DNA of 59,116 bases from assembly GCA_030604905.1 (NCBI GenBank), contig JAUVVA010000008.1, forward strand, positions 1-59,116, in the 5' to 3' direction. The position numbers and the translations under genes are program-made. This document shows positions 1,927 through 32,504 of this stretch, piece by piece (positions within the stretch are counted from its first letter, which is position 1; each line of letters begins with the position of its first letter). The notes beneath the pieces are model-generated. The model was given only the letters and a program-made list of their open reading frames with translations, was not told the origin of the DNA and made no database searches. The DNA is from Verrucomicrobiota bacterium (GTDB taxonomy: Bacteria > Verrucomicrobiota > Verrucomicrobiia > Opitutales > Opitutaceae).

Positions 1927-2668
1927 GACCCCGGGAACGCCGAGCCCCAGCTCGGCATCGAGCAGCAAGCCGGCCGAGCTGGGGCTCGGCGCTCCCGGCG
2001 CCATGTCCATGATGCCCATTCTCCAAGCCACCTCGCTCCACAAGAGCTACCTCAGCGGCGAGCGGCACATCGAGGTGCTGCGCGGCGTGGACCTCGTGGT
2101 CGCGGCCGGCGAGAGCGTGTCGATCCGCGGCGAGTCGGGCTCGGGCAAATCCACCCTGCTCAACCTGCTCTCCGGCCTCGACGCGCCCGATTCGGGCGAG
2201 CTGCGCTGGGAAGGCGAGGCGAGCCTCACCCCCGTCCGTCGCGGTCGTCTGCTCGGGCTGGTGTTCCAGGCCTTTTACCTCGTGCCGGAGCTCGACGCCG
2301 AGGCCAACGTGCTGCTCGCCGCGCGGCTGGTGGGCAAGGTCGGCGAGCCCGAGCGGGCCCGCGCCCGCGAGCTGCTGCGTCGGGTGGGCCTGGCCGAGCG
2401 CGCGCAGCATGTGCCGGCCAAGCTTTCCGGGGGCGAGCGCCAGCGCGTGGCCATCGCGCGCGCGCTCATGAACCGCCCCAGGCTGATCCTCGCCGACGAG
2501 CCCACGGGCAACCTCGACGAGGGCAGCGGCGACGCGATCATCGACCTCCTGCTCTCGCTCGGTCGCGAGGAAGGCTGCGCGCTGGTGCTCGTGACCCACA
2601 ACGCCGCCCACGCGGCCCGCTGCGCCCGCCGCTTGTTTCTGCGCGAGGGCGGCTTTCACGCGGCCTGA
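1919..2668 (+). CDS. lolD: LolD-type lipoprotein-releasing ABC transporter ATP-binding protein
   Basis: ABC ATPase that would energise LolC-mediated lipoprotein release. The conserved domain has the Walker [10 protein letters not shown], signature [15 protein letters not shown], Walker [10 protein letters not shown] and the LVTHN switch. The start is uncertain. A GTG at 1919 overlaps the lolC stop by 8 bp and lies 9 nt after GGAGG (1905-1909), which would give 249 residues including a ~28-residue N-terminal extension encoded by two repeat copies (PGTPSPSSA and AELGLGAPG). An ATG at 2003 gives 221 residues, nearer the usual LolD length, but has no Shine-Dalgarno. The GGAGG is also part of the conserved lolC PVEAL codons, so it may be coincidental. 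Confidence 0.88.
1928..2000. repeat. Palindromic repeat family A, inverted pair at the lolC-lolD junction
   Basis: Two copies of a ~28-bp repeat face each other here. The left copy (1928-1955) contains GGAACGCCGAGCCCCAGC and the right copy (1973-2000) contains GCCGAGCTGGGGCTCGGC, so the pair can fold into a large hairpin. The same element occurs four times inside mfd. The pair is open in the lolD frame and would be translated if lolD starts at the GTG at 1919. Confidence 0.85.
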
Positions 2669-28637: not shown

Positions 28638-28880
28638 CTAGCGCGGAGGCGCTGGCCTGACATGACCAATGACCTCCAGTGTCCCGTCATTGAATTTTCG
28701 TTAAGAATGAATTGGCCGCAAAGAGGCGCAGAAGTCGCAAAATCAATCCAAAGCTCCGCCCACTCTGCTTGTTTTTTGCGCCTCTTGCGCCTTTTTGCGG
28801 CCATTCCCTGACCGCATTTACTCAAATCACTTCAGTGACAGGACACTAGCGCGTTTGAGGCGCTGGCCTGACATGACCAA
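28638..28880. repeat. ~206-bp interspersed element, copy 3, with head motif at both ends
   Basis: The same element as at 15579-15990, with CTAGCGCGGAGGCGCTGGCC at the left and a second head motif, CTAGCGCGTTTGAGGCGCTG, at about 28846. The core arms TGGCCGCAAAGAGGCGCA and TGCGCCTTTTTGCGGCCA are conserved. It separates hsdM from the 3' end of mfd. Confidence 0.88.
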
Positions 28881-28940: not shown

Positions 28941-31900
28941 TTACTGCGGCGCGGGGAGGTTGCCGAGGAAGACGAGGATTTCCTTGAGGCGGGCGAGGGG
29001 GCGCGGGGCGGTGAGGCGCGGAAAACGGCCGGCGAGCTGCACGAAGTCGTCGCGGCGGCCGGCGCCGGCGCGGATGAGCTTCAGCTTCGAGCCCTCGGTC
29101 TCGACGCTGACGATGCCCTTCTGCTCGGCGGCGATGCGGATCGCGGTGACTTGCAGCAGCGCGCGCACCTCGTCGTTGAACTTGCCGAAGCGGTCGACCA
29201 GCTCGGTCTCGATCTCCTTGAGCGGGGCGGGCGAGCCGGCGAGGGCGAGGCGGCGGTAGAGGTCGAGGCGCAGGCGCGTCTCGCCGATGTAGGCCACGGG
29301 CAGGCGTGCCTGTATCTTCTCCACGGATACGGCGCCGGCTTCGGCCTCGGCGGCGGCTTTGATGGCTTGGTAAGCGGTGGCGCTCGAGGCCGAGCTGGGG
29401 CTCGGCGTTCCCGGGGGCGGGCTGCCTTCGCCGACGAAGACGAAATCGAGCTTCACCGTGGCGCGGATGGCGGCGGCTTGTTTGTCGCCCTTGAGCCGCG
29501 CGACCGACTGGCGGAGCAACTGGCAGTAGAGCTCGAAACCGACGCCGACGATGTGGCCGGATTGCTGCGAGCCGAGCAGGTTGCCGGCGCCGCGCAGCTC
29601 GAGGTCGCGCATGGCGATGCGGAAACCGGCGCCGAGCTGGTTGTGGGTGCGCAGGGCGTTGAGGCGCTCGCGCGCGATCTCGACGAGGCGGGTGTGGCGG
29701 TGGAGCAGCAGGTAGGCGTAGGCCTGGTGCTTGAAGCGGCCCACGCGACCGCGGAGTTGGTAGAGCTGCGAGAGGCCGAAGCGGTCGGCGCCTTCGATGA
29801 TGATCGTATTGCAGTTGGGGATATCGAGGCCGGTCTCGATGATCGTCGTGCAGACGAGCACCTGGTGGCGGCCGGCGACAAAGTCGGTCATCACCTCCTC
29901 GAGCTCGTGCTCGTCCATCTTGCCGTGGCCGACGCCGATGCGCACCTCGGGCAGGAGCTCGCGCAGGCGGGCGGCGACGAGGGCGATGGTCTGCACGCGG
30001 TTGTGCAGATAAAAGACCTGGCCGCCGCGGCGCAGCTCGTGGCGGATGGCGTCGACCACGAGTTGTTCGTCGTAGGTCTTGACGATGGTCTGGATGGGGT
30101 GGCGGTCGACGGGCGGCGTCTCGATCACGCTCATGTCGCGCGCGCCGGTCATGGCCATGTAGAGGGTGCGCGGGATGGGCGTGGCCGACATCGAGAGCAC
30201 GTCCACGGAGACGCGCAGGGCCTTGAGCTGCTCCTTGTGTTTCACGCCGAAGCGCTGCTCCTCGTCGATCACCACCAGGCCGAGGTCTTTGAAGTGGATG
30301 TCCTTGTTGAGGAGGCGGTGGGTGCCGATGAGGATATCGACCTGGCCGGAGGCGGTGGCGGCGATGATGCGGGTGGACTCGGCGCGGGTGCGGAAGCGGG
30401 ACAACATCTCCACCGCGACCGGGTAGCCGGCCATGCGCTCGCGAAAGGTGTTGGCGTGCTGCTGGGCGAGGATCGTGGTCGGCACGAGGATCGCGACCTG
30501 CTTGCCGGCCTGCACGGCCTTGAAGGCGGCGCGAATGGCGACCTCGGTCTTGCCGAAGCCGACGTCGCCGCAGACGAGGCGATCCATGGGGCGGGGGCGC
30601 TCCATGTCGGCCTTGGCGGCCTGGATGGCTTTGAGCTGATCGGGCGTCTCGGAGAAGGGGAAGGCGCCCTCGAACTCGCGCTGCCAGTCGTTGTCGGGCG
30701 GGGCGGCGAAGCCGGGCTGGGCGTCGCGCGCGGCCTGGATGCGGAGCAGCTCGGCGGCGAGGTCGAGCGTGGCGCGCTCGGCCTGCTGGCGGGTCTTTTG
30801 CCAGCGGTCGGAGCCGATCTTGCCGAGCTGCGGGCGGACCTTGGAGAGGCCGACGTAGCGGCTGACGAGGTGGGCCTCGGGCAGCGGGACGTGCAGGGTG
30901 ACGTGGTCGTCGAACTCGAGCGAGATGACCTCGCGATGGCCGTCGCGTGTATCGAGTTTTGTGATACCGCGGAAGAGCGCCACGCCGTGCTGGAGGTGGA
31001 CGACGAAGTCGCCCTCGACGAGGTCGGCGAAGTCGAGCAACTGGTCGACCTGGGCGCGGTGCACGGTGGCGCGGCGCGTGGTCTGCGCGCGGCGGGCGCG
31101 CTGTCGGCCGAAGAGTTCCGTCTCCGTCACGAGAATTTCGGGCGGTGGAGACGGGTCGGCGGCCGAGCTGGGGCTCGGCGTTCCCGGGATTAGCCGGAAG
31201 CCCTCGTTGAGCTGGCCGCGGAGGAAGCGGGGGCGGAGTTTTTTGGTGGCCGGGTGGGCGGAGAGGATTTCCTGGATGCGTTTTTCCTCCGACTCTTTCG
31301 GGACCACGATCGAGATCGCGGCGCCCTCGCCCTGCCAGCGGGCGAGGCGGTCGAGAAACTCGGCGCGAGCCTGCTCCTCGGCGGCCAGGCGATCCTGCGC
31401 GATGAGGTCGTCGGAGGGGTAGCGGCGGTGGTGGGAGAGGCTCTCGGTGTCCCAGGTGGTTTCTACGACCGGAGCGACGGGGCGCGCGGAGGCGGCGGCC
31501 GAGCCGGGGCTCGGCGTTCCCGGGGTGTCATCGAAGAGGGCGGCGGCCTCGTCGAGGTCGGCGATGGCGTCGAGCGCGGCGACGCGGGCCAAAAGGGGCG
31601 CGAGCGCCGGGGGCGGCTCGCCGGCGGCGAGTTTTTCCCGGGCGAGGAGGCTGAAGCTCTCGTCCAGCGCGGAGGGCTCGATGAGCACGAGCCGGGTGGC
31701 GGGGCTGAGGTAGGGGGCGAGGCCGGTGAGGGAGGGGGCGAGGGCGAGGCGCGGGGAGGCGGCGAGGGTGAGCTTGTCGACAGGCGCGCCGGAGCGCTGG
31801 GTGACGGGGTCGAGCTCGCGGATGTCCTCCAGGTCGTCGCCGAAGAAGTCGAGGCGGTAGGGCTGGGCGGCGTTGACCGGGTAGAGGTCGATGATGCCGC

Positions 31901-32504
31901 CGCGCACGGCGTAGGTGCCGGGGGCCTCGCAGACGGCCTCGGAGTCGTAGTCGAGGGCGCGGAGTTTTTCGAGCAGGGCCTGGAAGGGGTGGTTTTGGCC
32001 CTTGGTGAGGGTGAGCTCGTTGGCCGCGTAGTCCTCGAGCGCCGGCACCCGTTGCAGCAGGGCGGCGGGGGTGGTGAACACGGCCAGCGGCGGGGCGTTT
32101 TCCGGGGAGGCTTGGATGCGGCGGGTGGCGCGCAGGCGGGAGAGCACGGCCTGGCGGTCGGCGGAGGCGGCGAAGGCCTCGCTCATGTCGCGCGCGTCGG
32201 TGATCGCCTCGGGGAAGACCAGCGCCTCGAGCGCGGGGCGGCTTTTTTTGGCGGAGGCCGAGCGGGGGCTCGGCGTTCCCGGGGCGGACGGCGCCGCGTG
32301 GAAAAGGGCGGTATCCTCGGCCAGTTGCTCGGCGGCCTTCAGGGTGTCGGCCACGATCAGCCAGACGGGGGCGGGGTGGCGGGCGAGCAGGCGGGCGAGC
32401 ACGGCCCCCCGCGCGGGCGGGCAGACGCCGGTATGTTTGGCGCGGGGAAGGGCGGAGCTGGAGGGCGAGGCGTCGGACACGGAGCGGAGGGAGCCGAGCA
32501 ACAA
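28941..32504 (-). CDS. mfd: Transcription-repair coupling factor (Mfd)
   Basis: An 1187-residue SF2 translocase that removes stalled RNA polymerase and recruits UvrA. The N-terminal UvrB-like region has GTYAVRGGIIDLYP (194-207). The RNA-polymerase-interacting CarD-like domain lies near 496-570 (EGDFVVHLQHGVALFRGI). The RecG-like motor has Walker A GDVGFGKTE (646-654), DEEQ (747-750) and QLRGRVGR. A TRCF C-terminal domain follows. Four copies of PGTPSPxSA at about 75-83, 328-336, 440-448 and 1031-1039 are encoded by a palindromic repeat and fall in predicted linkers. The start is a TTG at 32504 and is uncertain. Confidence 0.93.
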   Translation of the reverse strand: MLLGSLRSVSDASPSSSALPRAKHTGVCPPARGAVLARLLARHPAPVWLIVADTLKAAEQLAEDTALFHAAPSAPGTPSPRSASAKKSRPALEALVFPEAITDARDMSEAFAASADRQAVLSRLRATRRIQASPENAPPLAVFTTPAALLQRVPALEDYAANELTLTKGQNHPFQALLEKLRALDYDSEAVCEAPGTYAVRGGIIDLYPVNAAQPYRLDFFGDDLEDIRELDPVTQRSGAPVDKLTLAASPRLALAPSLTGLAPYLSPATRLVLIEPSALDESFSLLAREKLAAGEPPPALAPLLARVAALDAIADLDEAAALFDDTPGTPSPGSAAASARPVAPVVETTWDTESLSHHRRYPSDDLIAQDRLAAEEQARAEFLDRLARWQGEGAAISIVVPKESEEKRIQEILSAHPATKKLRPRFLRGQLNEGFRLIPGTPSPSSAADPSPPPEILVTETELFGRQRARRAQTTRRATVHRAQVDQLLDFADLVEGDFVVHLQHGVALFRGITKLDTRDGHREVISLEFDDHVTLHVPLPEAHLVSRYVGLSKVRPQLGKIGSDRWQKTRQQAERATLDLAAELLRIQAARDAQPGFAAPPDNDWQREFEGAFPFSETPDQLKAIQAAKADMERPRPMDRLVCGDVGFGKTEVAIRAAFKAVQAGKQVAILVPTTILAQQHANTFRERMAGYPVAVEMLSRFRTRAESTRIIAATASGQVDILIGTHRLLNKDIHFKDLGLVVIDEEQRFGVKHKEQLKALRVSVDVLSMSATPIPRTLYMAMTGARDMSVIETPPVDRHPIQTIVKTYDEQLVVDAIRHELRRGGQVFYLHNRVQTIALVAARLRELLPEVRIGVGHGKMDEHELEEVMTDFVAGRHQVLVCTTIIETGLDIPNCNTIIIEGADRFGLSQLYQLRGRVGRFKHQAYAYLLLHRHTRLVEIARERLNALRTHNQLGAGFRIAMRDLELRGAGNLLGSQQSGHIVGVGFELYCQLLRQSVARLKGDKQAAAIRATVKLDFVFVGEGSPPPGTPSPSSASSATAYQAIKAAAEAEAGAVSVEKIQARLPVAYIGETRLRLDLYRRLALAGSPAPLKEIETELVDRFGKFNDEVRALLQVTAIRIAAEQKGIVSVETEGSKLKLIRAGAGRRDDFVQLAGRFPRLTAPRPLARLKEILVFLGNLPAPQ
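29389..29417. repeat. Palindromic repeat family A, mfd copy nearest the 3' end
   Basis: GCCGAGCTGGGGCTCGGC followed by GTTCCCGGG. Read on the coding strand it encodes PGTPSPSSA between the motor and the C-terminal domain of Mfd. Confidence 0.85.
31162..31190. repeat. Palindromic repeat family A, third mfd copy
   Basis: Same sequence and orientation as the copy at 29389, encoding PGTPSPSSA at about residues 440-448 of Mfd, just before the RNA-polymerase-interaction region. Confidence 0.85.
31498..31526. repeat. Palindromic repeat family A, second mfd copy
   Basis: GCCGAGCCGGGGCTCGGC then GTTCCCGGG, one substitution from the others; encodes PGTPSPGSA at about residues 328-336. Confidence 0.85.
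32257..32284. repeat. Palindromic repeat family A, first mfd copy
   Basis: GCCGAGCGGGGGCTCGGC then GTTCCCGGG; encodes PGTPSPRSA at about residues 75-83, near the N-terminus of Mfd. Confidence 0.83.

Follow-up and report, generated by a model that had tools for sequence, protein, structure and literature searches.

The mfd gene of a Verrucomicrobiota bacterium of the family Opitutaceae lies in a 59,116-nt stretch of DNA (GenBank assembly GCA_030604905.1, contig JAUVVA010000008.1, here C178; "the window" denotes this whole stretch) and carries four in-frame copies of a 27-nt palindrome. We consider it probable that these palindromes are repetitive extragenic palindromes (REPs) of a non-canonical, GGGA-headed group of REPs and REP-associated tyrosine transposases (RAYTs), and that they represent a mobile hairpin whose orientation is set by C-run targeting, whose frame is set by a filter on the encoded peptide, and which forms linkers in Mfd. 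The hairpin is spread over the genome in many copies, some of them in inverted pairs; it accompanies a RAYT gene in a congener, lies predominantly sense to the genes that hold it, is depleted in one sense frame, and follows C runs on its 5′ side.

Four in-frame palindromes in mfd

The mfd product matches E. coli Mfd structures (phmmer). Its Pfam domains and repeats are arranged as follows, in window positions and protein residues.

28941–32504, minus strand: mfd, transcription-repair coupling factor, 1187-aa open reading frame (ORF), TTG start as listed
Residues 164–248: Pfam domain UvrB_inter
Residues 496–551: Pfam domain CarD/RID
Residues 620–781: Pfam domain DEAD
Residues 819–924: Pfam domain Helicase_C
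Residues 1064–1143: Pfam domain TRCF
32257–32283, minus strand: REP copy 1, PGTPSPRSA from residue 75, N-terminal to UvrB_inter
31498–31524, minus strand: REP copy 2, PGTPSPGSA from residue 328
31162–31188, minus strand: REP copy 3, PGTPSPSSA from residue 440, N-terminal to CarD/RID
29389–29415, minus strand: REP copy 4, PGTPSPxSA from residue 1031, in the Helicase_C/TRCF interval

These four copies were the first family returned by a repeat search of the window. Their DNA is the palindrome CCCGGGAACGCCGAGCCCC[AGC]GCTCGGC, 27 nt long and sense to mfd each time; two copies are identical and two have one loop-base change. A preliminary description of this DNA had reported four near-identical palindromes in mfd that share one orientation and one frame and encode PGTPSPxSA, and we recover them at the same coordinates; the unit is also, as had been claimed, open in all six frames in each of the four. 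The further proposal that the repeats occupy interdomain linkers agrees with mfd, where none of the four sites falls in a detected Pfam domain or in a block that aligns to E. coli Mfd, and where relatives vary in length. It does not extend to every host, as copies at residue 90 of an HHH_6 protein and residue 845 of a tRNA synthetase fall inside Pfam envelopes. A 30-nt imperfect inverted repeat (28713–28803; 87% complementary, 31-nt gap) lies 3′ of mfd.

A dispersed hairpin family

We searched the genome (4.19 Mb in 234 contigs, 81% complete) with a 23-nt pattern that was degenerate at loop and head positions. At ≤1 mismatch this pattern found 71 copies and its reversed control found one, which places the family far above chance; the element is a short hairpin in many dispersed copies, as REPs are. 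It is laid out as a C[CT]GGGA[AG]C head followed by GCCGAGC, CCCA and GCTCGGC, with a length of 27 nt, a 7-bp stem and a 4-nt loop. The majority of copies are single, and inverted pairs occur in contigs C19 and C86 and at 1930–1999 of the window:

1930–1956, plus strand: REP arm, GGAAC form, first of an inverted pair (REPIN-like), immediately past a stop codon, in the sense direction of the gene upstream
1973–1999, minus strand: REP arm, GGAGC form, second of the inverted pair (REPIN-like)

This window pair precedes an ABC-transporter ORF. The genome also holds a sister family, B, whose head is identical and whose stem pair is compensated (GCCGGGC/GCCCGGC), and a third REP family, C22, in which both head and stem differ. 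An Rfam search of the window gave no match at the gathering score.

Copies within genes lie in the sense orientation

We masked the repeats and called genes with an iterative codon-usage script, which labelled 71% of the analysed DNA as coding. Gene location was scored for 71 copies at ≤2 mismatches, C51:6768 (antisense, 3 mismatches, no GGA head) having been excluded before counting. Thirty-five copies lie wholly within called genes and 36 outside, and all 35 in-gene copies are sense. They are spread over 28 genes, 26 of which were scanned by Pfam, with hits in 22; Mfd was scanned separately, and a C136 gene with three copies was left out. Together, the 22 scanned ORFs and Mfd make 23 genes with hits, which hold 28 of the 35 copies. 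Hosts identified in this way include UvrA, NAD-dependent DNA ligase, the HHH_6 protein (which we take to be DnaE-like), ScpA, a tRNA synthetase, a DEAD helicase and sulfite reductase. In a protein that joins a TOTE-conflict-system primase domain to a helicase (L022:523-3021), one PGTPSPGSA-frame copy stands directly C-terminal to the primase domain.

As a check for missed genes, 36 additional ORFs (≥120 aa) that overlap copies outside called genes were scanned with Pfam, with one 1109-aa window ORF excluded. This check placed an antisense copy in a glycosyltransferase gene (C93:23398, read as AEPGLGVPG at about residue 200), a sense copy between two domains of one ORF (C67:7090) and a sense copy in a FliK match below the cut-off (C109:54664); C136:7666 is sense with ambiguous gene status, and two inverted pairs lie ahead of domain starts (C86 and C178:1934). 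The corrected in-gene tally, inverted pairs excluded, is 37 sense to 1 antisense.

Copies just past stop codons have the same direction. Outside called genes, 16 copies lie no more than 30 nt 3′ of a co-oriented gene, and for 13 of these the distance is ≤15 nt, which places them directly past its stop codon. Sixteen of the 17 copies with any 5′ neighbour within 30 nt are sense to it, the exception (C19:817) being the second arm of an inverted pair, antisense to its 5′ neighbour. The mirrored position, with an antisense gene ending ≤15 nt away on the 3′ side, is held by one copy, C20:3090, beside a weak gene call. Post-stop stretches are C-rich, 72–78% of CCC within 30 nt being sense, and under these local strand shares 16 of 17 has P = 0.03–0.09. 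E. coli REPs have been reported ≤15 nt from stop codons (PMC12306157, cited, like the papers below, from the parts of its text that were available).

C runs and coding-strand composition

In this genome C makes up 41.8% of coding strands and G 27.7% (0.29 Mb of the genome), and C exceeds G on the sense strand in 90.6% of 120-nt gene windows; third codon positions have a GC fraction of 0.90. Directly 5′ of in-gene copies there is a C run, with 91–97% C at positions −5 to −3, and with repeats masked the sense strand has 89% of CCCC and 92% of CCCC[CT]G. Because gene strands are C-rich, above all near the insertion sites, most in-gene insertions are expected to be sense: matched local skew predicts 32.6 of 35, giving P = 0.074 for 35 of 35, and the probability of at most one antisense copy in 38 is 0.25 under the matched rate and 0.07 under a rate of 0.889. 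The orientation bias is real, and C-run targeting on coding strands this rich in C predicts most of it; the shared sense direction probably follows from the abundance, on the coding strand, of the C runs favoured by the hairpin. The glycosyltransferase gene that hosts the antisense copy (L016:912-1874, G000:C93) has a G-rich coding strand, with C 272 and G 369 in the ORF and C 35 and G 61 in the flanks, which matches the prediction of C-run targeting.

Other families of the same genome serve as controls. Family B, which has the GGGA head, shows an upstream C fraction of 0.71, and 9 of its 37 analysed copies (38 found) lie in genes, all sense; C22 shows an upstream C fraction of 0.36, and only 1 of 39 analysed copies (42 found) lies in a called gene, antisense. 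The family B copies at C43:16664-16750 and C43:1986-2028 are near ORF 5′ ends and may precede the true starts.

Among the matches listed, the exact REP core also occurs in Chlorobiaceae, Kiritimatiellae, Lentisphaerae, Methylococcales, Microbulbifer, Ectothiorhodospira, Chloroflexi and others. We used 71 of the 80 listed loci, leaving out nine of them and 35 further stretches, so that matches number at least these. The 61 non-Opitutaceae loci have balanced coding strands, and called genes account for 4 of their 117 copies (1 sense, 3 antisense). In the 10 Opitutaceae loci, at least two of which (L115 and L152) appear to be the G009 genome and so are not independent, the corresponding count is 4 of 12, all sense. 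Counting any ORF of ≥150 aa gives upper bounds of 5/34 for Chlorobi, 3/17 for Methylococcales, 1/7 for Chloroflexi, 13/30 for Kiritimatiellae-Lentisphaerae (9 sense, 4 antisense), 8/12 for Microbulbifer (3 sense, 5 antisense) and an uninformative 17/17 for Ectothiorhodospira. Mostly intergenic placement is well supported for Chlorobi, Methylococcales and Chloroflexi only. As to the extragenic predominance of REPs, 35 of 71 copies lie in called genes here, and 113 of 117 lie outside them in the other phyla, where calling is incomplete. Within 150 nt of genes, same and opposite orientations number 5 and 4 in Chlorobi, 3 and 3 in Kiritimatiellae-Lentisphaerae, 2 and 2 in Chloroflexi, 7 and 2 in Methylococcales, 7 and 2 in Microbulbifer, and 2 and 0 in Ectothiorhodospira.

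Reading frame and encoded peptide

The 35 in-gene copies are read as PGNAEPQLG in 18 cases, PGTPSPSSA in 15 and RERRAPAR in only two. Insertion after C runs predicts the RERRAPAR frame for 34% (CCC) to 54% (CCCC) of copies, and against these expectations 2 of 35 has P = 7e-5 and 2e-9; so low a share of the third frame suggests that Arg-rich inserts are selected against. The preliminary description had offered two explanations, an insertion filtered for a tolerated peptide or a mechanism favouring one frame. The former is probably correct, and we reject the latter, as two frames are used with similar frequency and depletion is confined to the third.

It had also judged the shared orientation and frame of the four mfd copies to be improbable. 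The sharing is real, but sense is the norm in genes, and from the frame usage of the non-mfd copies (18, 11 and 2; n = 31) four copies would share any one frame with P = 0.13; that all four use the PGTPSPSSA frame has P = 0.016. It had proposed a genome-wide count by gene, orientation and frame, and had named unbiased frames with purely intergenic copies as the pattern that would speak against it. The count, at 37 sense to 1 antisense in genes and frames of 18, 15 and 2 among 35, shows a depleted third frame and places 35 of 71 copies in genes.

RAYT genes that carry the REP

In the congener G007 (contig C102, locus L311) the REP lies 8 nt 5′ of a RAYT ORF, which also has an antisense REP inside (NAELELGVPG) and a one-mismatch copy over its last codons (GTPSSSSA). 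RAYT genes with the REP inside and around them also occur in Desulfogranum and Kiritimatiellae, so that a linked RAYT flanked by the REP is found in all three, and an internal copy is present in the RAYT of a Methylobacter metagenome-assembled genome. Within the genome studied, only sister families flank Y1 genes, and the C43 RAYT has NAELRLRIPG at the position of the internal copy. The RAYT genes at L311:1486-2127 (G007), L142, L131/L267, L272, L277, L281 and L181 each contain a REP of their own, in frame and antisense, read as NAEL[GE]LGVPG or similar directly ahead of a W-REYWDRYIRD segment. The internal copy of L277 shares the altered stem GCGGAGC with the adjacent REPs, and thus follows its neighbours.

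REPs inside the transposase gene have been reported for RAYT/TnpA_REP group 4, subclass 2.4 (PMC6006769). The present RAYTs are like that subclass in the HUH Y1 protein, the flanking REPs and the in-frame REP inside the gene, and unlike it in the GGGA head and in having WM in most of seven sequences where the available table gives WQ; the likeness is drawn from the shared internal in-frame REP rather than from placement in a tree.

Mfd sites and repeats in relatives

Among 29 mfd loci of relatives (2 partial, from 37 relatives searched), the four repeat sites vary in length. PGTPSPxSA occurs at sites 75 and 440 in none of the 29. At site 328, G001 and G011 have REP-like degraded copies, with 3 and 5 mismatches respectively and, in G011, an intact stem, the noise level of this search being two other matches at 5–6 mismatches and one control match. 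Site 1031 reads as an eroded GTPSPASA in G013 and as GTPSSAS in G018, of another genus, whose DNA matches the repeat, by eye, at only a few bases. As to the suggested check for gaps in relatives, the peptide is absent at sites 75 and 440, and degraded or eroded likenesses occur at 328 (G001, G011) and 1031 (G013). On these alignments, insertion at the Mfd sites appears to be recurrent or old, with copies that decay. At mfd site 440 of the congener G013 (L076), the Mfd linker also contains a second, ATTGGTCATTGG-like repeat, read as IGSDIGHWSLDIGHSVSV, and L235 is a further case; these linkers gather several repeat kinds.

Sense placement recurs in relatives. G009 has 11 in-gene copies, all sense, one partly overlapping copy, also sense, and 7 outside; G013 has 6 sense copies, 1 antisense copy within an inverted pair and 3 outside, its 5 single copies being sense; both in-gene copies of G011 are sense, with 8 outside; and G026, from another family, has 2 sense copies with weak gene scores and 10 outside.

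Some orthologous sites retain the repeat amid a scrambled linker or spacer (C165:18318 and L221:6543; C53:269 and L235:2022; C103:1495 and L223; C50:20898 and L234), sometimes with a different subtype. Such retention may reflect a hotspot, conversion or constraint, in pairs that were chosen for holding the repeat.

Discussion

We propose that the hairpin transposes as single-stranded DNA by means of a Y1 (HUH) RAYT, and that its G-rich head acts as a guide for a C-rich target, so that the element would join 3′ of a CCC(C) run. A C-rich coding strand would then receive sense insertions and a G-rich one antisense insertions. None of the frames of the 27-nt unit contains a stop, and the host frame would be kept if the gain is 27 nt. 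Selection would clear structured regions of insertions, along with many copies in the RERRAPAR frame, leaving PGTPSPSSA and PGNAEPQLG copies as short, flexible linkers, and mfd would have acquired four at length-hypervariable sites, where copies later decay into ordinary linker. The proposed guide role has a precedent in one system, where changing the head from GTAG to GTGG shifted cleavage to CC (PMC8266576). Pairing of a GGGA head with a C-rich target would fit such guide–target chemistry, and strand-specific, IS200/IS605-like mobility may be expected.

Orientation could instead be set by transcription, with the RAYT inserting into the non-template strand of transcription bubbles or R-loops whatever the sequence. 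The nearly uniform sense direction of in-gene copies, the 16 of 17 post-stop copies (P = 0.03–0.09) and the sense lean within 150 nt of genes in Methylococcales (7/9) and Microbulbifer (7/9) would all accord with this. However, the antisense C93 copy follows composition rather than transcription, and no lean is seen in Chlorobi (5/4), Kiritimatiellae-Lentisphaerae (3/3) or Chloroflexi (2/2), and we regard this explanation as unlikely. Equally unlikely, in our judgement, is protein-level selection acting alone on random insertions, of which only the sense PGTPSPSSA and PGNAEPQLG frames would be tolerated. The scarcity of the Arg-rich sense frame (2/35), the Pro/Ser/Ala-rich composition of the peptides in use and the variable linkers at the Mfd sites speak for it, whereas C runs, which it does not require, are present and antisense peptides are tolerated, namely AEPGLGVPG in the glycosyltransferase and NAEL[GE]LGVPG in RAYT genes. 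We reject random orientation with selection alone as the main cause, as untranslated post-stop copies are also mostly sense.

Still less probable is that the repeat is kept as a module with a function at the DNA, RNA or peptide level rather than as a tolerated passenger. Its retention beside a scrambled linker in C165/L221, C53/L235 and C103/L223 is what such a role would produce, but those pairs were selected for an intact repeat in both members; among 13 congener mfd loci (11 full, 2 partial) chosen without regard to the repeat, none has an intact copy, and two frames are in use.

Several observations weigh against C-run targeting combined with a peptide filter. The 35:0 ratio depends on a codon-usage script that missed genes; taking the longest ORF of ≥150 aa without a codon model gives 39 sense, 25 antisense and 7 with none, a weak count because spurious ORFs swamp the measure at such GC. 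A flat rate of 0.889 gives P = 0.016 for 35 of 35 but 0.07–0.08 for one antisense copy of 36–38. The C run may partly belong to the element rather than to the target, and upstream C seems weaker in low-GC phyla (≤6 sequences inspected per group). The other-phyla control agrees with C-run targeting but is soft, with only 46–84% of loci called coding. Depletion of RERRAPAR is weaker in congeners (4 of 19 in-gene sense copies, P = 0.16), and the RAYT on C43 of the genome studied is bracketed by family B rather than by the REP family of mfd. No clean 27-nt empty site was found in mfd or other genes, six repeat-less orthologous comparisons differing by 9, 9, 15, 42, 9 and 9 nt. The softer control lowers our confidence and the antisense exception in a G-rich gene raises it, so that our overall estimate is unchanged and we continue to regard C-run targeting with a peptide filter as the probable account.

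In-frame intragenic REPs are already known from Opitutus terrae, and Rickettsia palindromic elements (RPEs) are a second known case. Intragenic GTAG REPs are most numerous in O. terrae, including copies in uvrA and DNA ligase genes, and repair genes are frequent hosts (PMC3733652); genes of these two kinds also carry the REP in the Opitutaceae genome studied. The preliminary description had held that in-frame palindromes are established in Rickettsia and knew of no account of this family; the in-frame type is, however, published outside Rickettsia, in O. terrae (PMC3733652). Like GTAG REPs, the present elements are 5′-tagged short palindromes in high copy number, with inverted dimers, many copies directly 3′ of genes and some within them; unlike them, they have a GGGAAC or GGGAGC head in place of a GTAG, GYAG, GYRG, GTRG, GTMG or GTGG foot. 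The available main-text parts of that paper contain no orientation rule or link to C runs, and mfd is not in the main text, the supplement lying outside this comparison. RPEs are likewise palindromes read in frame in unrelated proteins, but have a CGTC end and no dedicated transposase (PMC3733652), where we find a GGGA head and a RAYT. Inverted pairs occur as in REPINs (PMC3116915), although most copies here are single. Literature searches for the repeat sequence, or aimed at REPs in RAYT or Opitutus genes, retrieved nothing, and a GGGA-headed group with a C-run preference, a composition-based orientation rule and four mfd copies was not found in literature that mostly excluded subscription journals.

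We give even chances to a broader, joint proposal: that REP transposase guide–target chemistry and an extreme C bias of coding strands together make a directional writer of in-frame linker peptides, and that genome composition decides whether the same REP is intergenic, as in Chlorobi and Methylococcales, or a sense coding insert in core repair and replication genes, as in Opitutaceae. On C-run targeting with a peptide filter, target preference would set orientation and a peptide filter would set frame, a simple account of in-frame, one-direction palindromes in proteins, the puzzle raised by Rickettsia RPEs. It would also tie the head sequence of a REP to its permissible landing sites, a link that lends itself to testing across many genomes.

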